Below are positions 10,312 through 61,310 of a stretch of DNA of 64,000 nucleotides, piece after piece. Each line of letters begins with the position of its first letter. Within the stretch, counting starts at the first letter, position 1. The stretch is from Strigamia acuminata (lineage: Eukaryota; Arthropoda; Chilopoda; Geophilomorpha; Linotaeniidae), in NCBI GenBank assembly GCA_949358305.1, contig OX442314.1, positions 37,917,211 through 37,981,210 of the forward strand, in the 5' to 3' direction. The position numbers and the translations under genes are program-made. The notes under the pieces are model-generated. The model was not told where the DNA came from. It did no database searches and saw only the letters and a list, made by a program, of their open reading frames with translations.

Positions 10312-10316
10312 AACTA

Positions 10317-11103: not shown

Positions 11104-11157
11104 TTTCAATTCAAATTTTTCAAAACTCACAGTTCTTTGTTCTGGGTCAATTCTTTT

Positions 11158-18421: not shown

Positions 18422-18472
18422 GTGCTTCGAGTGAAAAGTGCTCCGATTACGTCTTTAGTGCCTCGAGTGTTT

Positions 18473-30907: not shown

Positions 30908-30997
30908 CTGATCGGGATGGACTTGGTTTACATCGCGGTCCCAGTTTTCCTCGTCCTCGTGCTCTATGGCCAGCACGTCGTTCTCTTCCTCGTCCAT
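30908..30997 (-). CDS. Predicted ORF3 exon 1, family A (short, acidic)
   Basis: ATG at 30997 (context GCCATGG) opens 30 codons dominated by Asp and Glu, starting MDEEENDVLAIEHEDEE, and reaches a donor-like CAG|GTAGAA. Without splicing the frame stops 7 codons later. Family B has an acidic exon in the same place with the same phase, which supports the call. Confidence 0.55.
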
Positions 30998-31474
30998 GGC
31001 GAGGAGCGCGCACAAAAAGCTCAATCACGATTGAAAAAAGGATGATAAAACTATCTCAAAAAACTCGATAAAAACGTTAAAAACGAGGATCACGCACGAA
31101 TGCAGCGATCAGCTGTGAAAAGCGGAAGTTCGTGTGAACACGAGGTAATCGCGATGGATTCTGGGTAATATACTCCAGAACCCGGGTGTTTGAGACTAGT
31201 GCGCACCTACCCGTGCGCATGTTACGCTACGGGTCTCCTTTGTTTTCACTCCCGTGCGCGATTGCTGCTACGGGGTCTTTTGCACGCGGTATCCGACCCG
31301 TGCCGATAATTTTGCTACGGGTCCCGCGCTTCCACGCCATCTTGTGACGTGAATTCGACCGATATCCGCTTTGTTGGACTTAGCGGAATTTTCTTCGAGT
31401 CTCGCAACGTGATGGCTTGCACTATCGGTCGATTAGAATTTATTTTTAGTGCCGCCATCGACTCGTAATTTATT
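30998..31474 (-). other. Spacer between pol and ORF3 with three similar hairpins
   Basis: Three stem-loops with ACCCGT/ACGGGT-type stems lie at 31209-31234, 31251-31274 and 31295-31323. Each has a loop of 14-15 bases that starts AGC and ends near GC in element orientation. No frame of interest is present. They could be an RNA signal in the genomic or subgenomic transcript. Confidence 0.6.
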
Positions 31475-35545: not shown

Positions 35546-35568
35546 GAATGGCGCAGACGGTCGAGAAG

Positions 35569-38500
35569 TTATTTCTTCGCCGCCTGCGCTGACTCGTTTT
35601 TTGACTCGTTTTTTGCCATGGCGAGTTTAATCTCTGCCATCTGCTTCATTATTGCGTCAAATTTAGCGTCATCTTTCGCTGTTCTTGGGCACTCATTGGA
35701 ATAGTGACCCGGTTGGTTACACTTGAAACAACGAATATTTGATTTGTCTCTTGGGGCTTCAGTCGATTTTTTCTTTTCAGGGTCTGCTTTCGACGGTGGC
35801 GTGTAATTTTTCCGAAAATACTTCGGAATTCGGCCGGCATTTGGTTTTAACCTGGCGCGAAATTCTTCTACCGCTCTATCTCGATGGATGAGATGTACTA
35901 GCGGTCCTTCCTCATCGCAACCCGTTGATAAGGTATCGCGATAGCTTCGTATTTCTTCGTCCGTCGAATAATCGTCTTTTTCTTCTTTTTCGTCTGATTT
36001 TCCGGCATCTTGTCCGGCTTCCTCCCCCTCCTTGACCTCCTCCAGTGTCGCTTGCATGGCTGACGCTGTCGGTGCCTTTTTAGGGGCGGCCAAAGGGTTG
36101 GAAGGCAGCGTGGATGTCAGTTTATTTTTTATTTGCAAACCAACGCTAGCTTCTGCCAGCTCCATTATACCGCTAAGATATTCAGTAGGGCGCATAATCT
36201 TATCTGTCGCCCCATATCTTTCCGCACTCAACTTGAGACGTTTTGCGGTTGCTGCTTTCTCCGCTTCTGGTAAAGCGGAATAATACCTCTTCTCGATATC
36301 TATCGTGTTCTCGAACAGGAAGGCGCTCATCTCCTCGTAGCTGCCTCCTGTCGGTGCCCTTTCTTCAAGTAACACCCGTTGCGAGTACTCCGACAAACCG
36401 CCGAGAAAGAAAAGGTTGAATCCCGTGGCATGAAATTCCATCGGGGCCTTTTCGAACAACAATCTGGCGCGAATGTCGTAATCCATTATGGTTTCACCAG
36501 GCATCTGGCGAAGACCTCGCATCTTTCGGCTCACCTCTTCGGGTGTCTCGCCGTAGCGCAGGTCGAATCTCATTAAAAAGTCGTCCCAATTGACGCCTTT
36601 CAATCCTTGGTACCACTCACGTGCCGAGCCTGTCATTAGCTCGACAATACCGTGGGTGAGCATGTCTCCTACGGTGGCTTTAGTGGCAGTCTTAATTCGA
36701 ATTACTTCGTCAAGGAAGCGATCTCCCGCTTTCCATGACCCGTCGAAACGGTTCTGAATATAAAATTGCCACCTAATATTCCCGGTAACGCTCATGGTGT
36801 CTCGTCGGGAGACAGCGTATTTTTTCTTTACGCGGTCGCCAGTGCTACGATTACGATCGTTTCGTTTGCTCAGATCGATTCCCTCGGCCTTCAACGAGCC
36901 AAGTAGTGCTCTTCCAAGCTCTCCCATCGTATACTGCCGACCCGTCGAATCGGTAAACGCGCTTTGTCGGGGAGGGTCCTGAAACTCCTCCCGTCGGTGG
37001 TCGCTATTTTCCGATCGACGTCGTTTCTCTCTATCGCGCGGAGAGTTGGATCTCTTCCGGCGATTACTTGATTTATCCTTTCGTCTGTCGTCGTTGGATG
37101 AGGGGTCGGAGCTGGGGTCGGGAGACGGTGAGCGGCGTGGCGGGTCGCGCCGTGAAGAGTTTGACTCTTTCCGGCCCCTACGACGGTCGTCACGTTCCCT
37201 TTCCCTGCGTTCATCGCGTTCTCTTTCCCTTCGTCTTTCTCCAGAACCTCTCTCCGAATCGTGATGACTGGGTGCATTTGACTCCAGTCCATCTGACGAC
37301 GAATCACTATTTCCGTAGCGATAATATTTCGGTCTTTCATCGCGTTTGCCTTCTTCTCGCGAAGAGGTGCGATCATGCGATTGTCTCCTTGACGACTCGT
37401 CGTCTTTAAGGATGGGCACTGGTTGTTGCCACTCAGTCCCTTGCGGATCATCATGCTGTTGGCTTGTGAGAGCTTGCTCTTCATTTCGCCTAGCATTATT
37501 AGCGTTGATTAACCGCGTTATCGCATTATTTGTGGCTGAATCGAGAGCTTGCATGCGGGGCCGAGTTTGTTGTTCTCTGGCCGACGCATCTCTCTTGCGC
37601 GGAGTAGCTGGTGTTGCCCTCTCCGGCTGGGGTTTGGGTTTGGCCTTCGGCGTGCGCTTTGGGTCTCCCTCTAGGCTCTCGTCGGACAGCTCGGATGAAC
37701 TGATCTCTGGTTTGCGAACGGATTTCGGGTCATCTCGTCGCAATCTGGCCATAAATGCTCGCTCTGCTTCTTGTTGCGAGTGGAAAGCATATCGATGTGC
37801 TCTCAGGGCTCGGTCAACTATTTCTACCTCCTCGGGAGTAGTCGGATTGGGCTGGGTTCTGCCGTACTCGAGAGCTTGCGCTTCTCTTTCCGCCAGCTTC
37901 CTCCGTCTCTCGCGAATGGCTTGTCGAGCCTCGTTCTCTGCATCCGCTTCAAATTGAGCGGAATCAACCAATTGTTGAGCGTGTGCACCTTCAACAATGG
38001 TGATTTGTGGGGATACACTGTGCGCTTTTAAAGCTGCACGTACGATTTGTAACGTTTCGTACACTGTAATCTTCCCCGTCGGAAGGGTGTATCTCACTCC
38101 CTCCGCTTGTGCCAATTGCATCGCATCAATCAAGGTGCCCGAGACGCTGTAAGGCTGGCTCGAAACACGCTTGACAGAGGACGAGTTGGACTTGTGCCCT
38201 TCAGACACTACCGAGGCTGGTCGACTGTGCGTAATTGGCGTGTCTAGTGCCGAATTAGCGGTCGTATTTGAGGCCGTCTTTTGTATCGGAGACGCTGCTT
38301 TCGGACTGCCCACCTCGGTGTCGTGCGTTAGACGAGGCGATTGGTTACGGGATAAAACCTCGTTTCCGCTCGTCTCGTCGTCACGGTTAGAACGCGGCAG
38401 TTTGGAGTGAGATTGCTCTTCACCCCGCTCTGTCTCGTCCAATCGCTGCCTCGTCTCGGTGCGAGACGGGTGCGATGCCTCTGATGCGCTTCTACGATCG

Positions 38501-38652
38501 GGTTTAGGCTTACGCCGTTTTTGCCTCGCTTCGTGCGCTGAGGCTTTGGGTAAGGGACCTCCAGATCGCAAGTGATAGTCGGCGCCTTTACGACTGCCGG
38601 CTCTCTTGTTTGCGTCGGAGTCGGAATCTGTTACTCGGGTATTATCTGCCAT
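35569..38652 (-). CDS. gag: Gag of Gypsy family A (large, with RS-rich region and zinc knuckle)
   Basis: The start chosen is the ATG at 38652 (AGAAATGG context), about 55 bases after the primer site; the frame stays open 9 codons further up. About 1,027 residues. The N-terminal part is low-complexity, charged and Ser-rich, followed by a long coiled-coil-like stretch. Then comes a dense Arg/Ser/Asp/Glu region resembling SR proteins (DNA about 36960-37260). The capsid-like domain is at about 36300-36790 (WQFYIQNRFDGSWKAGD, AREWYQGLKG, LRYGETPEE). The zinc knuckle CFKCNQPGHYSNEC lies at about 35690-35735. The end overlaps pol, with two A_AAA_AAC sequences just before the stop. Gag forms the particle and binds the RNA. 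Confidence 0.9.
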   Translation of the reverse strand: MADNTRVTDSDSDANKRAGSRKGADYHLRSGGPLPKASAHEARQKRRKPKPDRRSASEASHPSRTETRQRLDETERGEEQSHSKLPRSNRDDETSGNEVLSRNQSPRLTHDTEVGSPKAASPIQKTASNTTANSALDTPITHSRPASVVSEGHKSNSSSVKRVSSQPYSVSGTLIDAMQLAQAEGVRYTLPTGKITVYETLQIVRAALKAHSVSPQITIVEGAHAQQLVDSAQFEADAENEARQAIRERRRKLAEREAQALEYGRTQPNPTTPEEVEIVDRALRAHRYAFHSQQEAERAFMARLRRDDPKSVRKPEISSSELSDESLEGDPKRTPKAKPKPQPERATPATPRKRDASAREQQTRPRMQALDSATNNAITRLINANNARRNEEQALTSQQHDDPQGTEWQQPVPILKDDESSRRQSHDRTSSREEGKRDERPKYYRYGNSDSSSDGLESNAPSHHDSERGSGERRRERERDERRERERDDRRRGRKESNSSRRDPPRRSPSPDPSSDPSSNDDRRKDKSSNRRKRSNSPRDREKRRRSENSDHRREEFQDPPRQSAFTDSTGRQYTMGELGRALLGSLKAEGIDLSKRNDRNRSTGDRVKKKYAVSRRDTMSVTGNIRWQFYIQNRFDGSWKAGDRFLDEVIRIKTATKATVGDMLTHGIVELMTGSAREWYQGLKGVNWDDFLMRFDLRYGETPEEVSRKMRGLRQMPGETIMDYDIRARLLFEKAPMEFHATGFNLFFLGGLSEYSQRVLLEERAPTGGSYEEMSAFLFENTIDIEKRYYSALPEAEKAATAKRLKLSAERYGATDKIMRPTEYLSGIMELAEASVGLQIKNKLTSTLPSNPLAAPKKAPTASAMQATLEEVKEGEEAGQDAGKSDEKEEKDDYSTDEEIRSYRDTLSTGCDEEGPLVHLIHRDRAVEEFRARLKPNAGRIPKYFRKNYTPPSKADPEKKKSTEAPRDKSNIRCFKCNQPGHYSNECPRTAKDDAKFDAIMKQMAEIKLAMAKNESKNESAQAAKK
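35596..35614 (-). promoter_or_regulatory. Two tandem -1 frameshift heptamers, family A
   Basis: A_AAA_AAC in the gag frame occurs at 35614-35608 and again at 35602-35596. Both fit the X_XXY_YYZ rule. Slipping by -1 at either enters the pol frame, which has no stop until 31475. Confidence 0.75.
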
Positions 38653-38703
38653 TTCTTGCTTTGGGTATGATGTAATCACAGGTTAGAATCAGTTATTCAA
38701 CTT

Positions 38704-38724: not shown

Positions 38725-39741
38725 TGTCGCGCTCAACTCTAACCGTCGCTAACTCGTGGGTTGATTACTTAATTCGACTAACTCACTACCGCTTTACTCA
38801 AGCGGTTTACCCAAAGAAATGATTACACAGATATAAAAGGTAAAATATAATATAGATTTATTCTGCGGGGCAATATACAGATATATCTTATATATATATA
38901 TATAAAGGGTAAGTAAAAGGTAAATCGGAATGGGTGATGGGAAATGGAAAGGCAAAGGTAAGATGAAAGCTGGCTGGAATCGGCGAGGTCGTCTGTTGTC
39001 TCGGTCGTGTCCAAGATGGCGTCCTCGTTGTGGCAACGTGATGTCGTCTTGGGCCGGCGTGGCAATATGGCGTCCTCGGCTCGTCTCTGGCTGGTCCTTC
39101 GGGCTCACGCTGGTCGGGCGCGAGTGAATGCTTAGTTAAAAGGCTTACTTCGGGCTGTTGTCTAGGTTTTTGTGTGGTGTCCGGCGATCACACAGCGGCG
39201 GACTCTTCTGGTTCCCGGCGGTCACACAGCGGCGGGAACGCTCGTCGTGGTTTTACTGCAGTTTAGGCTTGTGCGACCGTTTGTCTGCACAACTCGCTAA
39301 ACTGGAGTGGTTTTTACTATTTCTAGCTGGTGTGCTAAAATAGTGTGGTAATCTTATCTCGCAGGTTACTCTGCGGAGTTTGACACTGACCAAACGTACT
39401 CACGGTAAATTGTCCTTTGTCCTCGGTCAATCCCAGTATATTTACTTGGGCCTGATCTTGTAGGACGACGGGTTTACGTGTGTTTCTCGTTTGATGGTTG
39501 TGTTGGTTCTGCCCGCTCAGTGCAAGGCACATTCCTTTGCACAAAGCGGGGTTGACAGGTGACCAGAATCACCCAATGGTGGGGTGGACGAACCATCCCC
39601 ACTCCCTCAGGGCAGACGCCTGTCCATTGACTAGATGTCAATGCACTGAGGGAAGGGAGACGCGCTTGCGGCTCCCCTTACACCCGAAACGAGGTCACGA
39701 GAGAAACTCTTCGTTGACCCCGGTCCAGTCGGGTCACAACA
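38725..39741 (-). repeat. 5' LTR of Gypsy family A (complete)
   Basis: 1,017 bp, TGTTGTGACC (39741) to GCGCGACA (38725). A TATA run lies at about 38884-38903, AATAAA at about 38858-38863, and an ACCGCTT...AAGCGGT hairpin at about 38792-38810. The two shared-loop hairpins are at 39179-39203 and 39211-39239. Confidence 0.92.
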
Positions 39742-42392: not shown

Positions 42393-43224
42393 GGTAAATG
42401 CTACACTTATAAAAAATGCAGTTTTACAGTATCCAAAGCATAAAATTAAATTATTGGATTTTTTTTTTCTATTAGTTAAAGTATTGACAAAATACCAAAT
42501 AATTGTTCCAAAAAAATGGAAAAAAAAAATTTGAAATGAAGAAAAAAAAAACTTGGCTTCATCAACCACGTTCCTCGAGCTTATTCACCAAATTAAAATA
42601 TTGCAATGAAAGAATAAGTGACTGCAAGGGTTAATCTGTTGTTTGCCTCAAATAGGCACAAAATCTAATAATAGTTCCAATGGCATCCAATTTGCAGAAA
42701 TCCAGTGGCAGATTATGCCTAAAATGGCAGTACCATTTGGCGACGTCTATGCATCATGCGTGAAAGTCAACCGACCAGGTACCAAACTTAGAACATTTTT
42801 TATCTGAATGACCTTTCGACATGGTACACGTGCTACAGGGTTTAATTACACTCACAAGCTGTTTAAAAAGTGGATCTTTACAACCATGTCTGAGATAACA
42901 ATCACTTAAGTAATACGGAGTATTTCTTCAGCACTTCAGAGCTTATTTATAATCATCTAAAGAGGAGGGCATGATGCCTTTGTCTGATTGGTTAATCAGT
43001 GATAATTTCATCAATTTTCTGCCATTTTGGAATTGTGTAATTTACAATTTTTTTAATTTTGAAAGAATCCCTAGTGCAGAACTTGTAACTATTGTAGAAA
43101 TCGCTGAAATATGGCAATTAAAGGCACTGGGGCTCTCCAAACAACAAATTGATAAAAGGTTAGGAAGAAATTAATCAATTGCATCCTAAATTCTAACCCA
43201 TACATGAAAACCAAATGTAAAAAC
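42393..43224. other. Unassigned sequence left of Gypsy family B
   Basis: A short frame ending 43174 contains SAELVTIVEIAEIWQLKALG and could be another exon scrap. Otherwise nothing is supported. The last four bases AAAC (43221-43224) are the left target duplication of the next element. Confidence 0.35.
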
Positions 43225-44316
43225 TGTGGTGACCTCAAATATTCCTATTTGAGTGCGCACCATATTTCCAAATTGTCTTAAAAAAACATATTCAACAAGC
43301 TTATATGTTTTGTTTCAATGTAAATTGAAATAAAATATATATTAATCAAATATAAAACAAGACACAATATTACCCAAATAATATTGTGTTTTGCAGCAAG
43401 TTTTGGCCCAGCAACAGCGTCAACCAATCGCGCTGCAGCGTGCATTGCTTTGATGATGCTGCTAGGCGTGTGCCTGGGCGGAGCATCCCTTCCCCTCGCG
43501 CGTGCCCGGCTCAATTGTTGCACACGACCCGAAGGCGGCCGTGTGTGATCTTTGTGCAACTCGTCATCTGCGCAGCTTTTCTGAGCAGATTTTGGAGTGA
43601 GCCAAACGGTTTTGGCCCACTCTTCCTGCACTCTTGATTCCACCTCCAAACTGTTCACAACCGTGTCAAACTTCTGCCAAAACTGCAAAGTGTGATCTGT
43701 GATTCTTGGACGAATTGAGTTTCATCGCTGGTCTGTACCCACTGTACGGAATAGCAACTTTCTAGCTTGAATTACTACGCGTAATTTAAGCCATTTCTGT
43801 GTGAAACTAACATCGAGTTTACTCTGTTAGTTTGAAGGCTTTGTGTCGAGTTTAACTCCACAAAGCGATTTGTGTAAAGACCGATTGTTACGTCGAGCTT
43901 GCTCCGTAATAATCGAACCGCTGTGTGCAAGACGTATTCTCGTGTCGAGCGTGCTCCACGAGGATTTTAGAATATTTAGAGGCGTATTTTAGCGTTGAGT
44001 TTACTCCGCTAAAATCCCGCGCTCACACGACGCCATCGACGCCATTTTGGAGCCAACGGTTAACTGTGAGTGTCCAAGTACAAAGAGAAGCCAGATCGAC
44101 CCAGTCATTACATTATTATTATTATTATTTTCCCTTTGCATATATCAAGTGTATTTAAAACGATTAAAACAATCTAATTTTTCCTTTTACTCTCCGTGTA
44201 AAAATCATTCCCCTAGACAACCATTTAGCCACAGAGTAGAAGTCCTATACGGCATCTCACCGACGATTGCTTATTGAATTTATATAATTTAATAAGTAAA
44301 AACCCGGATCGCCGCA
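43225..44316 (+). repeat. 5' LTR of Gypsy family B
   Basis: 1,092 bp, TGTGGTGACC to ATCGCCGCA. It contains a five-hairpin array (43804-44015), an ATT microsatellite (about 44106-44128) and a TATA-like CATATATC (about 44139). Minus-strand frames here (136 codons) are incidental. Confidence 0.93.
43804..44015 (+). promoter_or_regulatory. Array of five hairpins with shared architecture and unlike stems
   Basis: Hairpins at 43804-43833, 43838-43866, 43883-43914, 43936-43965 and 43986-44015. Each is a stem of 8-10 bp, a two-base 5' bulge (TC or TT), an inner GAG/CTC stem and a loop of four or five bases (TTTA, TTTAA, CTTG, CGTG, TTTA). The stem arms AAACTAACA, GCTTTGTG, GATTGTTACG, ATTCTCGTG and ATTTTAGCG are unlike one another, yet each is matched by its complement, with two G-T pairs. 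The array recurs in the 3' LTR (about 55559-55770) and in the family B copy at 60506-60718. Confidence 0.9.
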
Positions 44317-44318
44317 CT

Positions 44319-44338
44319 TGGGGGCCTGTCCGGGATTG
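44319..44338 (+). promoter_or_regulatory. Primer-binding site, Gypsy family B
   Basis: TGGGGGCCTGTCCGGGATTG lies two bases after the LTR; the same type as in family A. Confidence 0.8.
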
Positions 44339-44408
44339 TTTTGATTGTTAAAATCCGATTTTTGCAAAAAGATCCTTTATTTCCATTGTTCTTTTTCAAT
44401 TTGACAAA

Positions 44409-47306
44409 ATGGCGACGCCAATGCAAATTGTAAAACGACAGCGAGGTCGACCAAGCACTCAGAAACGAGCAGCGACGGTTTTGCCGGCTCTCGAGCCTGA
44501 AATGCTTGTGGAGAAAATTATTTCCGAGGAAATAACACCAATTCCAGATCCAAAACAACTTAAGGATGCTGAAAATGAAGTTGCTCGAGCCCTGAGCGCA
44601 TCAAGTGCGAGTTCTAACGAACAAGAACTCCCGCCACTTCCACTGGAGGAAGTGGAAAATACGTTACGTGAAATGGAAAGTGAATCGTCTCACGAATCAC
44701 CTCCTCGCATGACCATGCTGGATGCGTTGAGAAATCAAGCACGCCAGGATGGCGCCCAAATAACGGACGACATGACGGTGGAAGAGATTCATCGCGCCAT
44801 GATACGACTTCACACTGATCGTGCCGTTTCAAATTTACAATTTGAAATGGAACGAAAAGAAGCAGAGCTTCAACAACAAAAAGCGGAGGTTGAGCTTCAA
44901 CACATGGAACTCAATCGACAAAATGAGGAATTTCTAGCCCAAAAAGCTAGAGAATACAGATTAAAAGGTGAAGTGGAAGATCTTTCTAAAATGAACGTTA
45001 GAAATGAACTTTCAATTCGCTCACATCAGGAGGCGCGAAGACAGCTCGAGCTTACCAAAAGTAAGCTGGAGCAGAAAAATAAAGAACTGATTGATTTGGC
45101 AGACCACTACCAACGCAATCATAATCAACTAGTGAGATATGCTGCTGAATTAGACACACGTGCTAAAACACAGCGTACTCGCGAAAGCAAAATAGCTAAG
45201 CGTGAAGACGAGATTTTCCACTCGCTGGATCAACCCAGTACGAGCGGACAAGTCAAGTCTAGCGGCCCTGCTAAGCGATTACAACCAGAAGAATCGCAAA
45301 ATCAAATAAATGAGAATGAAATTCTCCGAGCTGATTTGTTGCGCGCTCAAGAAGAGCTTGCAGAAATGAAAGATCGTTTGCAAGCAAGAAATTATACTGA
45401 CCAATTGGTGCAACCAGAAATGGCTGCGCCAACTGTTCCTATTTTGACTCCCGAAACAATAACAATTTCTGTTGTTTCAGAGTTAAGTAGCCAATCTGGA
45501 TTATCGAGTGATGACGACCAACGTTCGCGTCGTCGCCATCGCTCAAAAAGAAAACGTCCTTCAGATTCTGAGGAACGGAGAGCTGATCGCAATCCGCTCC
45601 CTGGCAATCGAAACCCTATTTTTCACAATAGTGACCGACTGTTGGGAATGGTAGACGATCGAAATAGACGGCATGAAACTGGTATTCATGTTGCTCGAAT
45701 GATACCACTGGCTCAACAGCAAGACTCGTCGAAAAGAAGTCGACGAGACATGAATCCAGCACGCGAACCACCCGACTGACATGAAAGCCCGCCAGGTGGG
45801 GGTCAGTATAGAAGAAATCCACCAGATGGAGGAAATCCAGATGGACATGGAGATGGACCACCTGGAGGTGGACGCCGACCGCCAGACGATGGTGACGGCG
45901 ACCCACCCGACCCACCTGAAACACCACATTTTAACACGCCTTCAAATTCACAATCTGATTCAAGGTCGGATTCTGATGTGAATGCACAACAAGAACGCGA
46001 TAATCGACATCGATCTCATCGACGTCGACATCGAGGCCATTCTTCACGGCGTAATACCCATTATTACACTGCTGAGGAAATTGATCGATTATTAGCTGAT
46101 CGTCGATCTTCCGATCGATCTGACGCTACTGCCGATAATGCTGACATTGCATTACGACAGAAAATTGCACAATATACTGCAGTCAACTGGACTCACGATC
46201 TAGTTGATGAAAGAACTATTAGATGGGATCACATTAAACCCGCTTTATTCGATGGAGAATGGGAAGCTGGATCCACTCTTTTAGATGAAGTTTTACGAAT
46301 TTCAAGGTTGAATGGCATTGTATGTCACACTGCTTTGAAAAGAGTAGTACCAAAAGCTCTTATAGATCGAGCTGAGAAATGGTTTTATTCTAAACAATTT
46401 CAAAATTGGAACCACTTTGTAGAAGAATTCATGACTGAATATGGAGAGTCAAGTGAAGACTTACTACAAATGTGGGATAATCTTTCTCAAAATAAAGGCG
46501 AAAGTCTTCGCTCTTATTTAAGAAGGACTGAGGATTTATTGGTCACTCTCCCTTATACGATGGGAGACGCAGCCATTGATCGTCAATTCCGACGTGGATT
46601 GACAGATTATTCAAAGAATGTTCTACTTTCAGTACGAGCACCTTATCCGGGTGGTTTCGCTGAATTAGCCAAATTTATGCGAGCCAATCAGATAAGGATT
46701 GACGAAAATTACAAAGCTTACCTACCAGCTGATGAAAAAGTTGCGTACGCTAAGCGACAGCAACGGAGAAAGGAGTTGGCCAAAGACACACGTTTTGCTT
46801 ACACCCCTCTTTTGCAACCCCCAAAACGAGGAGATTTTTTGGCAGAGACTGCCAAGGAATCGAAAAAGGGATCGGATGGAAAAAATCCTCATCCAACCCC
46901 TAAAGCTCACTTAGCTGAAGTGACCGAAATGGAAACTGCTTCTGAACCGGAGAAATCTGACTCAAAACCAGAAAGCGAGGCTGCAGCTGCTTTATTAGCA
47001 CGTAATAACGCAGTAGCCAGAAAATTTGGACCAAAAATGGCGCCTAAAAACGTTACTTTTGGTTCACCAAAAACAGACGCGCTCAGTAGATCGAAGTCAC
47101 CGACCCCTAAAAAGGACGAAGCCAAACGTTCAAGTTCGCCTTCGCCAAAAGTCGCGAAATCGCCTGCTACTGACCCATGTAACATTTGTAAAAAATTGGG
47201 ACATTGGGCTAAAGAATGTCCTGACAGAAAATCGAGCAAAGACAAGATTATAGAAGAGTTCGAGAAATCGATGAAATCAATCGGCGAACTTCTAAAAAAC
47301 TTGTAA
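44409..47306 (+). pseudogene. gag: Gag of Gypsy family B, interrupted by one in-frame TGA
   Basis: The start is the ATG at 44409 (CAAAATGG), 70 bases after the primer site. The frame stays the same over 965 codons except for TGA at 45777-45779. The first part has a basic N-terminus and a long coiled coil rich in Glu, Gln and Arg (about 44800-45240), and the sequence just after the stop is Gly/Pro-rich. The second part holds the capsid-like domain (about 46180-46760: WEAGSTLLDE, AEKWFYSKQF, TEYGESSEDL, homologous to family A gag) and the zinc knuckle CNICKKLGHWAKEC (about 47176-47220). Family A has the whole gag open, so the TGA is probably a mutation. Read-through cannot be excluded, since TGA is followed by C. 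Confidence 0.88.
47294..47300 (+). promoter_or_regulatory. -1 frameshift heptamer A_AAA_AAC, family B
   Basis: In the gag frame the codons are CTA AAA AAC TTG TAA, so the heptamer lies two codons before the gag stop. A -1 slip enters the pol frame, which is open across the overlap. Family A has the same heptamer twice. Confidence 0.8.
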
Positions 47307-50300
47307 GCGCGCATCCAGACGGTCTAGTGGATGCGACGCCTACCGCCTCGGAAAACAAACTAACGCCATCTCAAATTTTGGATGAATTTTTAAATACTCA
47401 GATTAAATTAGAGATTGAAAATAATTTGCAATTTCCAAAAATTGATGTTTCCAGTTTAAAGCTTGTGCTACAAAATGAAAACATCACTGAGGAATTTTTT
47501 AAAGATAAAGTTCAACAAATAAAAGTAGATTGGGAATCTAAAATGAAAGATGCTGTTACTTTGCTAGATGGAAAAGCTAGGCCAACACCTGAAATTGTTG
47601 AAAGGTCAGATAAAATTGATTTACCTGGTCTTGACGATTGTATTGAAAAATTAATGGCTACAACGCTAGTCACTAATGATTTATTGGACGAATTACCATT
47701 GGATCCGCCGATAGAAATTAAGCCACCGCGACGTTTTAAGTGCAAGTACGCGGACATACCAAACAGCAATGATTTGCCGACGATTCGATTGCAGACGGCA
47801 AACGGTATGATAACAGGGATGTTAGACTCTGGAGCTAATCGAAGCTTCATGGCCTACTCCGTAGTAATTTCGCTGAAACTGGAAGATGAAATTCGACCAA
47901 TTGGACCAGATGTGAGAGTTACAACTGCTTCAGAAGATGTAGTCCCTGAAGGAACTCTCCTACTTTCTTTTGCGTGGACACACGGGATGTTAAGTCATCC
48001 ATTCATAATTTTAAGAAATAAATATCCTATTATTTTATTAGGATGTGATTTCATGAATCGACTCAATATTCAACCAAATCCTAAGACCATGTCTTGGAAT
48101 TTTGTCAAGTCTTTGAAAGAAGATTTACCTTTTGTTCCTCAAGCGATTTTTGATCGTTATCAAGAGTTCCTTGATCCACCCGAAGAAATCATGAAACGCG
48201 ACTTTATTAAAGCAAATCACATGAAAGCTGGTTCCGCCACTGCATGTCAAGCTAAAGTTGCCAATGAAGAAAATATAGTACAAAGACTTGTTAGCGACGC
48301 TAATTTGTCAATGGAAAATAATTTAATGCTTGAAAAAGTATTAAAGAAACATGAAAAGATTTTATCTCGCCGACCAGGTAGAACACACCTCGTTAGGCAT
48401 GAAATTAAACTGGACACTAAAGTTCCAATTAGAGTTCCGTTTAAAAGCGTAAATCCACAGAAACGTGAAATTATTCGTCAAATCTGTCAAGATATGTTGG
48501 ATAATGGGTACGTTGAACAAGCCACTGGAGACTATGGGATGAGAATAGTTCTAGTGATGCGTCCGGATTGTGATCCGAGACTCTGCATTGATTTTAGACC
48601 ACTCAATGCACATACATTATACGACCCTCCTCAAATGTCCAGCATTGAGGAAATCTTGCGAGAACTCGGAAGGTTTGAATGGGTCACAACAATAGATTTG
48701 TCAAAAGGCTATTGGCAAATAGAGGTTCATCCGAACGACCGTGCTAAAACTGCGTTTTGGAGCCCTTCGGGTCGACTACAATCTCGAGTCATGCCCTTTG
48801 GCCTCGTAAATGCGCTGTCAACTTTTCAAAAGTTGATAGAAAAGATTTTGGGGGACGCCTATCGAAAATTCGCATGGGCATACCTCGATGATATAATTAT
48901 TATATCAAAAAATTTTGAAGAACACATGATTCATCTGGAAGAAATTCTGAGTAAACTTGAAAATGCAAATCTTCATGTTCATCCAGAAAAATCAAAATTT
49001 GGCAGAAAAGAATTAACTTTTCTTGGTTACAAGTTAAGTGTTCAAGGAGTTAGTGTCGACCCTAAAAAAGTCGCCGCTATTAAAGAAATGCCAGCTCCTT
49101 CAAATTTGAAAGAGTTGCAGAGATTTTTGGGAATGGTGAACTTTTTTCACCGATTACTTAAAAATCTGGCAGTAATGACAGAACCTCTACGTCCTTTACT
49201 CAAAAAGGATGTGGAATTTATTTGGTCAGAAATTCATCAAGAAGCTTTTGATCAAATAAAAGATGCTTTAACGAATGCAGAAACAATGGCCATGCCTGAT
49301 TTGACAGAACCATTTATTGTGCATACCGACGCCAGCAGAAAAGGACTAGGCGCCGCGCTTATGCAAATGAGGGAAATCGATGATCAAAATATCGAAGTGC
49401 CTTGTGTTTATGCCAGCAGAAGTTTGCAACCTGCTGAGATAAATTACAGCGCCACAGAATTAGAATGCCTTGCGGTAATCTGGGCATTACGTAAATTTCC
49501 ACATTATTTGGAATTTACCACATTTATAGTAAGGACTGACCATCAAGCATTAAAATGGTTGATGCAGTTAGACGAACCTGCCGGAAGGTTAGCGCGCTGG
49601 CAAATGGAGCTGATGCGCTACTCTTTCGAAATACAATATATTAAAGGTCCACTAAATGTTTTAGCGGATGCTTTATCCAGATCACCGATTGACAAACCGG
49701 AAAATCCTGAAGATGATGGAGATAATGACGAATTATTATCTTACTGTCCATCACCTCAACGAAATTGGAAAATGGGAAAATTTCATGAACTTCCTGTCTC
49801 CACGCTGGAGGAAAAGGAAGATCACGAATTCGTCAACTATTGGACTAAAATTTATGACTCCTCTGAGGAATCAGATGACGTCATAAGAGCACAAATTTCA
49901 AGGAAATTTCAAATTCCTTCGTCAAATGTTTTAATAAAAGCATTTGTCGCCAAAGTCGTAGAACGTCTTGATTGTGAACCCCCCACAAGGGAAGACATAA
50001 TCAAGGCCCAAAAAGAAGATAAAGTTTGCCAATTAATGCGTAATTTTTTAAATTGTAATCAATTTCCGCCTGACGTCACAACGCGACTCCAGAGGAAACA
50101 ATATAGAAAACACGCAACCACCTTCTTAATTGAAGATGACTTATTAATGCAATTTCATCCCACAATGTCTGATGAATTGGGGGAGGATGGGAGAGCACTC
50201 AAAGTTTTTGTACCTCAGACATTGAAGTATAAAATTATTTGGCTGATGCATGGCCACCCACTTTCTGGCCACCCAGGAATTGCAAGGACTCTTTATCGAG

Positions 50301-51775
50301 CACGCCGAATTTATACCTGGAAAGGCATGAAATCGGACATTACGAGATTCATTCGACATTGTGAGCGTTGTCAAGCTTGCAAACCTCGAACGAAAGGACA
50401 AATTGAAGCAGCGCAAATGGGTCCTTACAGCCCATTTGACTGTCTAAGTGTTGATTTGACCGGCCCAAAACCTCGGACGCGCAAAAACAACACACATATT
50501 TTAGTCATACTTGACGTGGCAACTCATTGGCCAGAATTATATCCAATGTGTAACCCCACTGCTGGAAAAGTAGCAAATTGCATTTATCACCTTTCCATGA
50601 GCATGGGATTCCCTCGTAAAATTATTTCTGACAACGGCCCGCAATTTCGAGCCCAAGTCTTCAAAAAATTTTGTGAAAAGTTCAAGATGGTTCCAACACC
50701 AACTTCAACGTATCACCCACAAGCTAACCCGGTTGAAAGGGTTAACCGTGACATCAAATATTTGGTTGCAATTTATTCATCTGTTCATTCCAAATGGGAC
50801 GAATATTTGCGTGAATTTGCATTTAGTTTGAGAACTACGGTGACGAGAGGAAGAGACTTCTCTCCCGCATTTCTTAACTTTTTTCGCGAACTCAGAGTAC
50901 CTTGGGATCCAAGAATACCTGAAGGAATTTTGGTCGTCGATCCAAAAAACCCACATTTATACGTGCAAAAATTAGAAGCCGTTATCGCCGAAACATATCA
51001 GCACATGATGTCACATGTGTTAGATTTGCGTAGACGAGTTAATCTTAAAAAAGAAGGTGAGAAGTTCTCCAATTTTAAATTAAACGATTTAGTTTGGAGA
51101 GATTCTCATGTTTTGTCAAGTGCTGCCCGCGGCATTGCAGCTGGCATCGCTGATAAAAGAACAGGACCTTATGTAATAACCTAAGTATTACAGGGAGGAT
51201 CCGTAGAATTGAGAAAGCTAGAGAATAACGAAATATTTCCAGCTGTCCATTCGTCGGAATTAACTCCGTATTTCCCGAGTTTCGACCAGGAAGTATGGTT
51301 AGAAGGCGAAGAAGTCGGTCAAAAGACTGAAAATATAATTAATACGTTAGATGACGATGAATTAAAGAAAATACCTGTCGATAATTCATCCAAACCACAA
51401 ATGGAGTCAGACCTCGTGAATAATGACGTTGAGCTTCGTGACAGTTTCAAAAAACTTGAAATTGCTAAAAAATTAAATAAAAAGGTGTTTTTAGAAAAGA
51501 AACAAAAAACATCTGAAATAAAAGACTCATCTGACTCAGTCTCCGATGACAATGAAGACGGCGATTTAAATACAATAAATCCCTCGCCGACAAAGAGATA
51601 TAATCTTCGGACTCGTAAACCGAGAGGAAAGAACAACATGTGTCTTCTCCCCTCGCTAACCTCGAGATCCAGGGATCAGCCGTATGACGTAAGGAGCAAT
51701 TCCCCAAGCCATACTCAAACCAATCAAACAGTAAGATTGGATGACGTCACTAACAGCGACGTTACCCAAACGTAA
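47300..51775 (+). pseudogene. pol: Ty3/Gypsy pol (family B), interrupted by one in-frame TAA
   Basis: Entered by frameshift at 47300; there is no good ATG near the frame start. Counting from 47327: protease LDSGANRSF (about 166), reverse transcriptase YLDD (about 518), RNase H HTDASRKG (about 666), integrase zinc domain, then integrase residues in VDLTGP (1042), SDNGPQF (1100) and VERVNRD (1136), and a GPY/F module (about 1280). TAA at 51182-51184 cuts right after GPYVIT, and the same frame continues with ELRKLENNE, matching KLRKLEDNT of family A. The reverse-transcriptase motif FGLVNAPSTF of family A reads FGLVNALSTF here (about 48809), a change at a normally invariant Pro. Most enzymatic domains precede the stop. 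Confidence 0.9.
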
Positions 51776-51983
51776 CTTCCGGTATTTGAAACGATCACTT
51801 CGCGTCTGAGTTCACTTCGATCTCACACGTGTGTTAAGTGCTCATCCCCAAAACCAAAAGAGAAACCGTTGGATAAATTCTCCCGAATCTTCAATTGTAA
51901 GTAGTTTTTTCTTTGGAATTTTCCAAGGAAAAACTAATAAATTAATTTTCGTTTTTTCTTTTCCATTTGGATTAGTCGTTCAA
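51776..51983 (+). other. Leader of ORF3 with a predicted 79-nt intron, family B
   Basis: GTAAGTAG at 51897 is a good donor. A pyrimidine-rich tract and GGATTAG at 51969-51975 form an acceptor, 8 bases before the ATG of exon 1. The length suits arthropod introns. It could belong to a transcript started inside the element, or the acceptor could receive a donor in the 5' leader. Confidence 0.5.
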
Positions 51984-52235
51984 ATGGAAGGAGAGGAACC
52001 GAAAGAAGGAAGCGAAGCCGGCGCCAACAGCCTCGAATTAGAAACAAATTCGACGCTGCCTGGTTCCGCAAACACTTCGAATACATCCGTGGATGTCACC
52101 GAAGAGTCCGCCGAAGCTTAAGCCGCTCTGGCCGACGCTGCTGCCCGTTTGCCAGTCACGCCGTCTCAGCCCCGACTACGAGGAGGCCTATTCGCCGATC
52201 CAAACGGCGAAACTCGTACACAGAGACACGAACGG
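51984..52235 (+). pseudogene. Predicted ORF3 exon 1, family B (acidic, one in-frame stop)
   Basis: ATG at 51984 (TTCAAATGG) opens MEGEEPKEGSEAGAN and a Thr/Ser/Glu-rich part. TAA at 52119-52121 interrupts after 45 codons. The same frame then continues through an Ala/Pro/Arg-rich stretch (52122-52235) to a donor CGG|GTAAAT in phase 0. Family A has an acidic exon at the same place. The stop would block ORF3 in this copy. The other family B copy is cut by the window edge before this exon, so I cannot tell whether it is shared. Confidence 0.55.
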
Positions 52236-52587
52236 GTAAATAATTTAAAATAAAATTACCTTTCAGTCATGAAAAGTAATTAAAAGTGCATTTTCACTCA
52301 GAAAAAGCGAAAAGTTCGTTGGTAACGCCTTCGCAAGAAGGCGCCGCCATTTTTATCATCAGATGGCGCTGTGTCTCATTTTTGAGGCGTTGCTACGGTA
52401 ACGCTCCAAACACTGAAACATAGCCGTCGGAAACAACGTTTTTCACGATTTTTCAAATATTTTGAAAAATTTAACGAATCTAAACCGTCGAATGAAATCT
52501 CACCCGTGATTTTATTCACTGAAAATTCGGAAATAATTAATTTTAACGAAAAAATGGATTTTAATTATTTCTTCGAATATTTTACAG
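52236..52587 (+). other. Predicted intron of ORF3, family B
   Basis: 352 nt, donor GTAAAT at 52236 and acceptor ATTTTACAG ending 52587, phase 0 on both sides. Most of it is AT-rich with no open frame. The acceptor side is conserved at 63692 in the second copy. Confidence 0.6.
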
Positions 52588-54807
52588 ATCATCCAGCTTC
52601 GGGAGACGCATCTCGAACTGCACCCCGATGTTCCAACAGCTCCTGGAGTCTGGCGACATGCATTGCCGCCAGAAATCATCAAGTCTAAAGGAAGACTGAC
52701 GTTTTGGGCGGCCCGACACAAATTCTCCAAAGCCTTAAACAAGCGATGGGGAACGAAGTTTCGGATCGCCTATTTAATCGATGGATTCGGTCATCGCGAC
52801 GCCCTCGAGTGGGCAATGAAGCACGACACCTTCGGACCACTGCGAAACGTGTTGCTTGACTTCGCCTTCGTAGTGATCGCTCAAGAAACGCGAGACCATC
52901 GCCGTTACTTCAACGCTCCTGCGTGGGAGCGCCGACAGATTTTGGAGGACATTTTCCAACGCTTGGACCAAACCAAAGCCGAGGTTGTGCGCCTCTACCA
53001 CGAATCTTTCCGTGTAACCACAGACGGAAAGAAACGTTGGGTGCCGACATGCCAATCGGAGATGCATCAACTAGCCATGGGCGGATGTTTCCATGCTGAT
53101 TTCGTGCCAAATCCGTATCCAGAGCCTGAGCCCCGGGTACAGGTCGCTTCCACCATCCACGTGGTGCCACCGCGCTCCACGTCGAGGTCGCGATCATCGA
53201 GGTCGCCCTACAGTGGCCGTCGCTCCTCCCAAACCCAGTCGTCGGGGGAAGGCGCCATTGGAGGGTTACCTCCACTCCAGAAGGCTCGTCATCGCTCACA
53301 TCACCGACGCGAGTCGACGCCGCCAAAAAGACATTCGAAGTCCGTTTCAAGACACTCGTCCCGAAGCCGACCTCGAGTGCAATCGCGCCAATCTTCCACG
53401 AGGAGTTCACTCTCGTCGCGTGAAGAACGATCCAACGCTTCACAGCTTAACGCTTCCTCCTCCGGCCGGATTGACTGGTCGGACGAGATAGCGAAAGAAG
53501 ATCAACGCATCGCCGCATTGCAAGCCGGTCAAGGAGACGTCAACACCTCTTTGCCGTTCGCTTGCCGTCCAGTCACCAGCGACATGCGACCAGACCCATC
53601 AGTGCCCGTGCCACAAGTGACAACTGTCATCCGTTTCGAGGGATACGTTTCTCCGGAACCATTTCCAGCACAGGAGTGCGCTGATCTCTGGAGGCGATTC
53701 TCATCGTTTCCCGAGACAGCCCAAGCGATGTACCTCGCGCATCTGGACGAATACCAACTCGCTCAGATCCGCGAAGGTGAGAAGGAATGGCAATGGCTTG
53801 CCCGAGAGTTGGATTCGTGCAAGTCCGACAAGCAACTGCAACGGACGCTGCAGAAGATGAACAGGAAGTTGTCGGAGGGACTTCTTCGAATCCTGTTCCA
53901 AGGAGTCTTTCCCGACCCACAGATTGCTCTGGCGGCCGCCACTCGATTGTGGACCGTGCCGTTAGGGCTTCCACGAGCCTTGCTGGACGATTGGGAGTCA
54001 GTTCGCCCCGATCCTCCAACGATGCTCGCCGAATTGACACAACAAGCCGAGGCGACTGGCGAAACTCCGGCTGGGTCCGCCATTCGACTACGGCAAGAAT
54101 GGGCTACGCTGAAACAGCAACACGCAACGGAACGAGCTACCGCCCGTCCTGCTGGTGCTCCACCATCATCAGTCGCTCCACTCAACGCTGTCGTAGCGGC
54201 AACGTCGGGTGTCATGCGAGCAACCGAAGCACCGAGTTGCCAACTCTCGTCTCCAATGGAATGGCTTGACAGTGACGATCGCGAGTTTGTCGTGCCTGTG
54301 GCCAGCGGTGCAAGACCAAAGACGCGCGCCCCGGCTTCGCGCAGATCCAGATCGCTCTCGATCTGCAAAAAGTCGCCGCCACCACCACCACCGCCAAAGG
54401 ATTCGCCACCAAGAGAGAGGGGTTTTAATATGGCAACATACTTAAGCGCCTATCAACGCTTGCGCTCGGTGTATGCATTTTGTCACATAACGAGCGCAAC
54501 AAAGACGATTCTCCAAAACAACGAGGATTTATGCAATCGAGTCCTCGCGTGGCTGGAGAACCACATCAAGGAACAACAGCCGTGGATCTTGCATCAACGC
54601 CTGGTGTTCGCCCGAATTACGCCTCAAGACCCGCAGGAGTACTTCGAGATGGGTTTCGGACGAAGGGATGGTGTGGACCGCATAAAACAAGTGTGGCTCC
54701 ACATCAACCCTGGCTTCCAGTCAGGACCAAACGCCGGCCGATCTTTGTGCACCGTCACAGAGCACAAGGATCCAAATGATCATTTGACGGACATGTTGCC
54801 TAAATAA
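52588..54807 (+). CDS. ORF3 exon 2, Gypsy family B (unknown function)
   Basis: 740 codons including the stop, open directly from the acceptor. A conserved stretch (LELHPDVPTAPGVWRHALPP) precedes the first practical internal start, which supports entry by splicing. Blocks: helical N-terminus with DALEWAMK and RYFNAPAWERRQ, then RWVPTCQSEMHQLA (about 150); an Arg/Ser-rich region resembling RS domains (about 190-290); a helical block with LPRALLDDWESVRPDPP (about 461); a Pro run (about 595); and a C-terminal block with HQRL, WLH and VTEHKDPND (668-730). The first, helical and last blocks match ORF3 of family A in order. No signal peptide or membrane segment is present, so it is not a typical envelope. 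The copy at 61472-63691 has the same length and nearly the same protein. Confidence 0.88.
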   Translation: MIQLRETHLELHPDVPTAPGVWRHALPPEIIKSKGRLTFWAARHKFSKALNKRWGTKFRIAYLIDGFGHRDALEWAMKHDTFGPLRNVLLDFAFVVIAQETRDHRRYFNAPAWERRQILEDIFQRLDQTKAEVVRLYHESFRVTTDGKKRWVPTCQSEMHQLAMGGCFHADFVPNPYPEPEPRVQVASTIHVVPPRSTSRSRSSRSPYSGRRSSQTQSSGEGAIGGLPPLQKARHRSHHRRESTPPKRHSKSVSRHSSRSRPRVQSRQSSTRSSLSSREERSNASQLNASSSGRIDWSDEIAKEDQRIAALQAGQGDVNTSLPFACRPVTSDMRPDPSVPVPQVTTVIRFEGYVSPEPFPAQECADLWRRFSSFPETAQAMYLAHLDEYQLAQIREGEKEWQWLARELDSCKSDKQLQRTLQKMNRKLSEGLLRILFQGVFPDPQIALAAATRLWTVPLGLPRALLDDWESVRPDPPTMLAELTQQAEATGETPAGSAIRLRQEWATLKQQHATERATARPAGAPPSSVAPLNAVVAATSGVMRATEAPSCQLSSPMEWLDSDDREFVVPVASGARPKTRAPASRRSRSLSICKKSPPPPPPPKDSPPRERGFNMATYLSAYQRLRSVYAFCHITSATKTILQNNEDLCNRVLAWLENHIKEQQPWILHQRLVFARITPQDPQEYFEMGFGRRDGVDRIKQVWLHINPGFQSGPNAGRSLCTVTEHKDPNDHLTDMLPK

Positions 54808-54979
54808 TTAGGGAACACGCCCGTTCATTAAAAATAATTCCTTTTTTATTTTTACACTGTAATAAAAAAGAATAAATATATATCCTGTTCCATTTTACTT
54901 TGAAACCTTGTGTATTTATTCTCATACTTACCTGTCTCTTTTGGAAAAGAATAGGATTCTTTCTTAAAAGGGGGGGAAG
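54808..54979 (+). promoter_or_regulatory. 3' untranslated region and polypurine tract, family B
   Basis: Two AATAAA-type signals lie near 54862-54877. AAAAGGGGGGGAAG ends at 54979, directly before TGTGGTGACC of the 3' LTR. Confidence 0.8.
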
Positions 54980-56068
54980 TGTGGTGACCTCAAATATTCC
55001 TATTTGAGTGCGCACCATATTTCCAAATTGTCTTAAAAAAACATATTCAACAAGCTTATATGTTTTGTTTCAATGTAAATTGAAATAAAATATATATTAA
55101 TCAAATATAAAACAAGACACAATATTACCCAAATAATATTGTGTTTTGCAGCAAGTTTTGGCCCAGCAACAGCGTCAACCAATCGCGCTGCAGCGTGCAT
55201 TGCTTTGATGATGCTGCTAGGCGTGTGCCTGGGCGGAGCATCCCTTCCCCTCGCGCGTGCCCGGCTCAATTGTTGCACACGACCCGAAGGCGGCCGTGTG
55301 TGATCTTTGTGCAACTCGTCATCTGCGCAGCTTTTCTGAGCAGATTTTGGAGTGAGCCAAACGGTTTTGGCCCACTCTTCCCGCACTCTTGATTCCACCT
55401 CCAAACTGTTCACAACCGTGTCAAACTTCTGCCAAAACTGCAAAGTGTGATCTGTGATTCTTGGACGAATTGAGTTTCATCGCTGGTCTGTACCCACTGT
55501 ACGGAATAGCAACTTTCTAGCTTGAATTACTACGCGTAATTTAAGCCATTTCTGTGTGAAACTAACATCGAGTTTACTCTGTTAGTTTGAAGGCTTTGTG
55601 TCGAGTTTAACTCCACAAAGCGATTTGTGTAAAGACCGATTGTTACGTCGAGCTTGCTCCGTAATAATCGAACCGCTGTGTGCAAGACGTATTCTCGTGT
55701 CGAGCGTGCTCCACGAGGATTTTAGAATATTTAGAGGCGTATTTTAGCGTTGAGTTTACTCCGCTAAAATCCCGCGCTCACACGACGCCATCGACGCCAT
55801 TTTGGAGCCAACGGTCAACTGTGAGTGTCCAAGTACAAAGAGAAGCCAGATCGACCCAGTCATTACATTATTATTATTATTTTCCCTTTGCATATATCAA
55901 GTGTATTTAGAACGATTAAAACAATCTAATTTTTCCTTTTACTCTCCGTGTAAAAATCATTCCCCTAGACAACCATTTAGCCACAGAGTAGAAGTCCTAT
56001 ACGGCATCTCACCGACGATTGCTTATTGAATTTATATAATTTAATAAGTAAAAACCCGGATCGCCGCA
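54980..56068 (+). repeat. 3' LTR of Gypsy family B
   Basis: 1,089 bp. Compared with the 5' LTR it lacks one ATT unit and differs at a few sites (for example C for T near 55381 and 55816). It holds the same five-hairpin array at about 55559-55770. AAAC follows as the right target duplication. Confidence 0.95.
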
Positions 56069-60211: not shown

Positions 60212-61296
60212 GCGGCGATCCGGGTTTTTACTTATTAAATTATGTAAATTTAACAAGCAATCGTCGGTGAGATGCCGTACAGGACTTCTACTCTGTGGCT
60301 AAATGGTTGTCTAGGGGAATGATTTTTACACGGAGAGTAAAAGGAAAAATTAGATTGTTTTAATCGTTCTAAATACACTCGATAAATGCAAAGGGAAAAT
60401 AATAATAATGTAATGACTGGGTCGATCTGGCTTTTCTTTGTACTTGGACACTCACAGTTGACCGTTGGCTCCAAGATGGCGTCGATGGCGTCGTGTGAGC
60501 GCGGGATTTTGGCGGAGTAAACTCAACGCCAAAATACGTTGCTAAATATACTAAAATCCTCGTGGAGCACGCTCGACACGAGAATACGTCTTGCACACAG
60601 TGGTTTGATTATTACGGAGCAAGCTCGACGTAACAATCCGTCTTAACACACAGATTTCTTTGTGGAGCAAGCTCGACACAAAGAACTACAAATTGACAGA
60701 GCAAGCTCAATGTCAATTCACACACAGAAATGGCTTAAATTACGCGTAGTAATTCAAGCAGAAGGGCGCTATTCTGTACAGTTGGTACAGACCAGCAATG
60801 AATCTCGATTCTTCCAATATCACAGATCACACTTAGCGAGTTTGGGCATAAGTTTGACACGGTTGTGAAAGGTTTGGAAGCAGGATCAAGAGTCCGGGAA
60901 GAGTGGGCCAAAACCGTTTGGCTCACTTCTAAATCTGCTCAGAAAAGCTGCGCAGATGACGAGTTGCACAAAGATCACACACGGCCGCCTTCGGGTCGTG
61001 TGCAACAATTGAGCCGGGCACGCGCGAGGGGAAGGGATGCTCCGCCCAGGCACACGCCTAGCAGCATCATCAAAGCAATGCACGCTGCAGCGCGATTGGT
61101 TGACGCTGTTGCTGGGCCAAAACTTGCTGCAAAACACAATATTATTTGGGTAATATTGTGTCTTGTTTTATATTTTATTAATGTATGTTTTATTTCAATT
61201 TACATTGAAATAAAACATATAAGCTTGTTGAATATGTTTATAAGACAATTTGGAAATATGGTGCGCACTCAAATAGGAATATTTGAGGTCACCACA
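60212..61296 (-). repeat. 3' LTR of second Gypsy family B copy
   Basis: 1,085 bp. It contains the five hairpins at 60506-60535, 60556-60585, 60607-60638, 60656-60685 and 60691-60718. Two have stems with sequence unlike the first copy but still fully paired. It is about as far diverged in this array as anywhere in the LTR. Confidence 0.92.
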
Positions 61297-61310
61297 CTTC
61301 CCCCCCTTTT
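61297..61310 (-). promoter_or_regulatory. Polypurine tract, second family B copy
   Basis: AAAAGGGGGGGAAG on the minus strand, directly before the LTR; the same as at 54966-54979. Confidence 0.85.

Follow-up and report, generated by a model that had tools for sequence, protein, structure and literature searches.

The Ty3/Gypsy element and its LTR hairpins

The window, by which we mean the whole 64-kb stretch of DNA analysed here, contains a retrotransposon which we assign to the Ty3/Gypsy type on the basis of its LTRs, a zinc-knuckle Gag, the RT-RNaseH-integrase order and a short target duplication. The latter is a 4-bp duplication (AAAC) flanking the element at 43225-56068, the 5′ and 3′ LTR regions of which align by BLAST over 1016 bases at 99.4%. 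The features of the element, together with a third copy of its LTR, are as follows:

43225-56068: Ty3/Gypsy element, 12.8 kb, with five-hairpin rows in both LTRs
43225..44316, + strand: 5′ LTR, TG...CA, 1092 bp
44409..45779, + strand: ORF1, 456 aa, with an arginine-rich stretch at residues 370-386; candidate binder
45978..47306, + strand: Gag, with Retrotrans_gag and a zinc knuckle (Pfam) and an arginine-rich N-terminus (by eye)
47327..51184, + strand: Pol, with RT, RNase H and integrase (Pfam), of Ty3/Gypsy type
52663..54807, + strand: ORF3, 714 aa, a homologue of ORF3 in the window's second Gypsy element
54980-56068: partner (3′) LTR of the element
55559..55770, + strand: five-hairpin array of the 3′ LTR, as in the 5′ LTR
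about 60211-61297, − strand: third LTR copy, with an array at 60506..60722 and compensated stems

ORF1 and Gag share a reading frame but are separated by one stop or more. Pfam returned nothing for ORF1, for the small ORF after pol or for ORF3 of this element. An ORF3 follows pol at 52663-54807, 61472-63616 (−) and 27295-30084 (−), with Arg/Ser-rich stretches; the first and last of these were scanned and neither has a Pfam match, and the ORF3s of the two Gypsy elements in the window are related to one another (26% identity, E 4e-19). The second Gypsy element (27295-38679, −) lies between 848-bp repeats (26411-27258 and 38894-39741) that are 100% identical and are its LTRs, the insertion being probably very recent. 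LTR elements are densely clustered in the window, which also contains a BEL/Pao element (6288-11130, −; Peptidase_A17, DUF1759 and DUF5641) and a Copia-type element (18422-22861, +; RVT_2).

The array in the 5′ LTR is composed of:

43804..43833, + strand: hairpin 1, TC bulge, GAG/CTC; double changes at three stem pairs and at the pair closing the loop
43838..43866, + strand: hairpin 2, TC bulge, five-base loop (four in some copies)
43882..43915, + strand: hairpin 3, TC bulge, 11 pairs, the outermost unsupported
43936..43965, + strand: hairpin 4, TC bulge, CGTG loop
43986..44015, + strand: hairpin 5, TT bulge

The original prediction described five hairpins of one architecture at 43804-44015, and this description is right: the stems are of 8-11 bp, the bulge is TC or TT, the inner stem GAG/CTC and the loop of 4-5 bases, with starts 34-54 bases apart, and the stem sequences are, as claimed, unrelated among hairpins while the core is constant. 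Both examples of compensated stems that it gave in the third LTR copy (60506-60535 and 60691-60718) are likewise correct. What it overlooked are the U-Y-GA...UC bulge motif with its likeness to TAR and 7SK, arrays of seven hairpins, three further LTR hairpins (T0, hp0 and one at the U5 end) and occurrences of the motif on other stems, each of which is described below.

A strict scan of both strands of the window found 16 such hairpins, of which 15 lie in the three LTR copies and one at 36648-36676, as compared with a mean of 0.6 in 20 mononucleotide shuffles. A single-hairpin covariance model (R1, built from 18 hairpins) recovered the same 15 LTR hairpins and nothing else above 11 bits, and a looser scan for the TY.GA core added one place (57076-57105). 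The loops follow the pattern YNTR (TTTA, CTTG, CGTG and TCTA), with a five-base loop in hairpin 2 of most copies, and the YNTR loop is closed by a Y-R letter pair, which in hairpin 1 swaps T-A for C-G; CUUG loops behave as two-base loops with a C-G closure. Folding of region 43724-44020 is predicted at −95.1 kcal/mol, a z of −4.58 relative to 200 dinucleotide shuffles; the five hairpins all form, and one weak helix encloses the row. For 43796-44020 the energy is low in both orientations (z −3.2 sense, −3.9 antisense), so that energy alone cannot separate the strands. No Rfam family scored above its gathering score in the 64-kb window; within 43000-44600 the sole match was mir-4018 (E 0.48), lying outside the array. 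A sixth hairpin class suggested by a tolerant scan (AA bulge, GAC/CTC) was dropped, as it overlaps hairpin 4.

Selection on pairing in the sense RNA

Copies were collected from the genome (237.5 Mb in 157 contigs) by combining the window, the best 40 places from each of two DNA searches, and 20 regions picked among the first 100 of 673 pattern places. The resulting set of 50 distinct near-full LTRs, from which four truncated or partial matches were excluded (a second copy in L025, and those in L066, L058 and L057), contains 39 distinct arrays; as they were drawn from capped best-match lists and, for the pattern places, from the initial part of a single contig, these family-1 copies are a non-random sample. 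Two of the 39 arrays (L049 and L050) have seven hairpins, with an extra pair of hairpin-1/2 type, but of another sequence type, ahead of the array. These two loci are 21 kb apart and perhaps belong to the same element; they look as if the array were able to grow by two hairpins. The strict scan recovered three of the five hairpins in L063 and L056, and four of five in L038. Our alignment (A1) comprises the 37 five-hairpin arrays, with the two seven-hairpin arrays excluded.

In A1, 98.8% of 2812 pair cells are paired, and shifting the partner by 1-3 columns brings pairing down to 35-44%. Eight pairs are altered on both sides, as against 4.9 after shuffling (4 of 500 shuffles were as high), giving 66 double-change cells versus 21.9 (0 of 500 as high) and a covariation of 0.098 versus 0.065 (0 of 500). 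One measure goes in the opposite direction, the further standard pair types numbering 29 vs 31.3 in shuffles. Hairpins 3 and 4 show one-sided changes only, with no double change among the 37 arrays, and in hairpin 3 the annotated pairing of columns 131/165 fails in 22 of the 37. Across the unrelated stems, 97.1% of 204 cells are paired, with a covariation of 0.730 vs 0.219. When changes are placed on a tree built from the LTR flanks, the pair survives 41 of 52 single changes away from a paired state, where about 29% would be expected from the spacer transition:transversion ratio (71:53), and all 27 double changes end paired; these counts refer to 75 pairs (131/165 having been dropped) and are inflated if copies recombine, hence we take them as support and not as probabilities. 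The pairing of the hairpins is thus under selection. This had been proposed in the original prediction from compensatory changes in a few copies, along with the collection, alignment and covariation analysis of further copies; with a covariation analysis now run on 37 arrays, in which covariation lies above all 500 shuffles, the case is stronger than before.

The strand that folds can be identified from the single changes, since a transition in a Watson–Crick pair leaves either G.T, which pairs in RNA, or A.C, which does not but which corresponds to G.U on the opposite strand. On the tree, single changes from Watson–Crick pairs in A1 comprise 33 G.T and 5 A.C events, with 5 others; counted as distinct pair sites, there are 21 G.T and 5 A.C. 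Equivalent substitutions in the LTR flanks occur at 243:215 (Fisher p 3e-5 against 33:5). The retention of G.T but not of A.C, relative to this flank control, points to selection on folded sense RNA rather than on antisense RNA or a DNA cruciform, and the sense RNA is the folding strand.

This result bears on the proposal that the array is a DNA feature, in the form of palindromic protein sites or a series of cruciforms. The near-palindrome GAGC..GCTC would suit such a feature, as would the abundance of RTYGAGYNTRCTCY, which occurs 1179 times in the genome versus 121 for a reversed control; however, a DNA structure would not be expected to keep G.T pairs and lose A.C, nor to confine its bulge to one strand, and we regard this proposal as very improbable. 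Of the functions that the original prediction had listed, the RNA kinds therefore fit, whereas the DNA cruciform is disfavoured both by the strand test and by a bulge that lies on the 5′ side only and has a fixed first base.

Further LTR hairpins and the place of the array in the transcript

Other features of the 5′ LTR lie to either side of the array:

43712..43730, + strand: putative start block, similar to the GAGTTGAGATTCATT-GCTG found in other LTR loci; transcription start near 43724 guessed
43727..43755, + strand: hairpin T0, 12-bp stem with a constant G.A mismatch and a constant G.T, without the bulge motif
43765..43791, + strand: hairpin hp0, 11 bp, one double-change pair (2 cells), without the bulge motif
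44163..44168, + strand: ATTAAA, candidate poly(A) signal; 50 of 50 LTRs have A[AT]TAAA at this spot
44211..44219, + strand: CCCTAGACA, U5 block, common to 12 of 30 other loci
44267..44299, + strand: U5-end hairpin, 14 bp, AT-rich, four double-change pairs (19 cells)

In a scan of 193 helices over the LTR, the combination of fewer than 5% broken cells and more than three double-change cells was confined to 43804-43833, 43838-43866, 43986-44015 and 44267-44299, which are hairpins 1, 2 and 5 and the U5-end hairpin. A helix at 44140-44154 has seven double-change cells but is broken in 21.5%, and helices in U3 have double changes in single cells only or are broken more often. A 15-bp palindrome in U3 (43358-43393; CAAGACACAATATTA/TAATATTGTGTTTTG) is well kept, with 1.5% broken cells. 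The U5-end hairpin stands just ahead of the primer binding region and is apparently a selected RNA hairpin. In T0, one further pair is T-G, T-A or C-G, A-C being seen in 1 of 600 cells; one constant pair makes up 50 of the 95 G-U cells. A different hairpin (GCTG...CAGC) directly follows the GAGTTGAGATTCATT block in seven other loci (L070, L076, L085, L088, L092, L093 and L096), each mismatched, like T0, at its fifth pair.

The A[AT]TAAA kept at 44163, which lies downstream of the array, is proposed to be a poly(A) signal; a second A[AT]TAAA is present at 43329 in 47 of 50 LTRs. Of 30 related loci, 12 contain CCCTAGAC, at 13 places in total, and 18 are without it; AATAAA precedes it by 45-63 nt at 12 of the 13. 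The start block is less distinct, with a borderline score: the best family-1 copy reaches 31 and the median is 18, compared to a 95th percentile of 22 and a maximum of 32 in shuffled sequences. The covarying hairpins start at 43727-43791, and the poly(A)-like signal follows the array at 44163. Because the covarying hairpins begin there, we would guess, at about even chances, that transcription starts near 43724 and that the array lies in R (about 43724 to 44185); otherwise it would lie in U3. In R, the array may be near both ends of the genomic RNA, and in U3 near its 3′ end only. An initiator at 44205 (TCATTC, present in 50 of 50 family-1 LTRs) was considered and dropped, since the 12 other loci with the adjacent CCCTAGAC do not conserve it.

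The bulge motif and its candidate partners

Comparison of the 185 hairpins in A1 (37 arrays of five) defines a kept motif, R-U-Y-GAG-loop-CUC-Y. At the first bulge position 184 of 185 have T and one has C, and the second position is C or T in every hairpin. Above the bulge, 183 hairpins have G-C as their first inner pair (one has G-U and one is unpaired) and all 185 have A-U as the second; below it, the 5′-side base is always a purine and the pair is GC or AU in 182 and GU in three. Outside A1, one TA bulge occurs, in a truncated copy (L066). Since TCGA places the second bulge base within a CpG, mutation bias may be behind part of its swapping between C and T. The bulge, the GA/UC pairs and the form of the loop are thus held while the stems drift with compensation.

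This pattern of conservation bears on whether the bulge is read at all. A generic structured leader or 3′ end might matter through its stability, by way of translation control, protection, dimerisation or spacing, with no protein reading the bulge; the high stability of the region (z −4.58) is in keeping with this, as is the covariation of T0, hp0 and the U5-end hairpin, all devoid of the motif. Stability leaves unexplained, however, a first bulge base fixed in 184 of 185 hairpins, a second base limited to pyrimidines, and GA/UC pairs fixed over five unrelated stems and in related LTRs, and such a role is in our estimation improbable.

The motif recurs beyond family 1. Fifteen single-motif loci (L098-L112) were taken from the first 100 of the 1179 genomic places with RTYGAGYNTRCTCY; three have clear hairpins (L099, L100 and L111; model R1, 35 bits), L109 is weak (21 bits) and the rest are chance-like. 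A second group of LTRs (L051 and the loci found with it) has stems of GAGTCCCG/CGGAACTC type. The 30 L051-type loci were fetched by their likeness to L051, and so are homologous and not independent; with all bulge and inner-pair classes counted, they contain 376 hairpins, of which 18 are TY.GA, the most frequent classes not made solely of A and T, although three of the 18 are chance-like (L068 2190, L072 1393 and L088 179). In these LTRs U-Y-GA...UC is retained even where loss of the third pair reduces the inner stem to GA...UC; the loop is then CTTG, CATG or CTAG. When 12 L051-type LTRs were anchored on the U5 block, eight hairpins were found in sense and none in antisense, against a mean of 0.07 and a maximum of 2 in 60 shuffles; the scan found no such hairpin in many L051-type loci (for example L074 and L091). 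Hairpins of this second group (L051 850-877; L099, L100 and L111) keep a C.A mismatch within the stem in several loci.

PMC6189040 describes the arginine sandwich as capped by a triple that a bulge pyrimidine forms with the stem, and as having the pair below the bulge for its base; in TAR it is formed by U23 with A27-U38 and A22, and in 7SK by U40 with A43-U66. The hairpins described here have a bulge pyrimidine able, as far as letters go, to form such a triple, and a Watson–Crick pair beneath the bulge, so that in their letters they match the pattern of the TAR bulge and of 7SK stem-loop 1 as given in that text. A sandwich would account for the near-invariant first bulge base and for the A-U pair two above, with any pyrimidine acceptable at the second position. 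Since the core is only about five letters long, the likeness to TAR and 7SK can be convergence on a common bulge.

TAR of the primate lentiviruses, which acts with Tat, resembles the array in being an RNA hairpin of the LTR, in its short pyrimidine bulge with U as the first base, and in having an A-U pair two above the bulge and a Watson–Crick pair below, going by the TAR residues in PMC6189040. It differs in being one hairpin rather than five; the array also has a two-base bulge and small YNUR loops (no TAR-type apical hexaloop is present among its loops, which are the four tetraloops given above or of five bases), and belongs to a Ty3/Gypsy element, in which its position in R is a guess. Stem-loop 1 of 7SK, the HEXIM site, shares with the array an A-UU-GA bulge core, but has several sandwiches on a single stem (PMC6189040), whereas here there is one bulge per stem and none on the 3′ strand. 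A host 7SK RNA is present at L113 1498-1791 (−), with a length of about 290 nt and Arthropod_7SK as its best model (58.8 bits), on which ground the host is probably an arthropod. A nematode host had been considered and was rejected on this match together with the lack of any exact match to SL1.

These likenesses raise the possibility of TAR/7SK mimicry, in which an array in R would capture HEXIM or P-TEFb, or a Tat-like protein of the element, on nascent RNA and so control elongation. Besides the fit of the motif to the sandwich as set out in PMC6189040, the host 7SK stem-loop 1 has ACATTGATC, to be compared with ACATTGAGC in hairpin 1 of the 60-kb copy, and two host HEXIM loci score over the cut-off, one of them with an arginine/lysine-rich stretch. 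However, the start site is a guess with a borderline block score, the loops are unlike that of TAR, the seven letters in common with 7SK could be chance, and a Tat-like protein was not identified; overall, we consider mimicry unlikely. It would be similarly unlikely that an invertebrate LTR lineage has independently built and multiplied a TAR-like system, with at least five sandwich hairpins in R capturing HEXIM/7SK/P-TEFb or an arginine-rich activator of the element. The array makes mimicry of the 7SK/HEXIM site outside lentiviruses testable.

An export element of the RRE or RcRE type has also to be weighed, for which an arginine-rich protein of the element would bind the array near the 3′ end and export unspliced RNA, with ORF3 made from spliced RNA. 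The array lies upstream of the proposed poly(A) signal, and hence in the 3′ part of the full-length RNA under either start, and the element has an extra ORF3 between pol and the 3′ LTR. RRE, RxRE and RcRE are described in PMC10746203 as retroviral RNA structures bound by Rev-like proteins, the RRE having branched stem-loops with a high-affinity site; here the arginine-rich binder is a candidate only, and the covarying structure in A1 is a linear row of separate, like hairpins, with no branched multi-stem structure of RRE/RcRE type. These simple repeats make an export element rather unlikely.

On balance, we think it probable that an arginine-rich protein uses the array as a multivalent landing platform that would mark the full-length RNA; ORF1/Gag of the element itself is the most likely such protein. 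The LTR encodes a row of sense-RNA hairpins (five, or seven in 2 of 39 distinct arrays), each of which would offer one and the same small binding site, namely a two-base U-Y bulge under G-C and A-U pairs, closed off by a YNUR loop. The bulge U would dock on the A-U pair and an arginine would stack beneath it to give an arginine sandwich, and repetition of the site would bring several arginine-rich chains side by side. The candidate binder is most likely the element's ORF1/Gag, by virtue of the arginine-rich stretch of ORF1, and the most likely job of the array would be to have the full-length RNA picked out for packaging or export. We favour the element's own protein because the array co-occurs with Gag/ORF1 and because multivalent sites fit Gag assembly. 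As counterpoints to a landing array, the small loops are unlike the TAR hexaloop, and the window's second Gypsy element, though equipped with Gag and ORF3, showed none of these hairpins in its LTRs (26411-27258 and 38894-39741).

Retroviral packaging hairpins offer a further comparison; there, Gag reads several stem-loops of the 5′ leader, although we know of none in which one bulge motif is repeated on unrelated stems. The original prediction held that no LTR feature of this form had been described; a word search of open-licence PubMed Central, which is weak evidence of absence, found, among the papers listed, none on hairpin arrays in LTR retrotransposons and so leaves this uncontradicted, but LTR hairpins with a pyrimidine bulge were already known, in TAR. 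To our knowledge, RNA control of the Tat/TAR and Rev/RRE types is treated as a mark of complex vertebrate retroviruses, and a selected bulge-hairpin array in invertebrate Ty3/Gypsy LTRs would make RNA control by arginine-rich proteins older, or multiply arisen. The array is also a naturally multimerised target, and its many genomic copies allow the base needs of each bulge position to be read off.

The arginine-rich stretch of ORF1 (residues 370-386) is DQRSRRRHRSKRKRPSD, also given as RSRRRHRSKRKR. It is present, whole or in part, in all 10 distinct places with an open frame that extends so far, among them the one in the window; these correspond to 12 records, two places being counted twice. 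Two further ORF1 places (L008/L012 and L042) have a stop ahead of it. The start of ORF1 has KRQRGRPSTQKR, which we take to be AT-hook-like.
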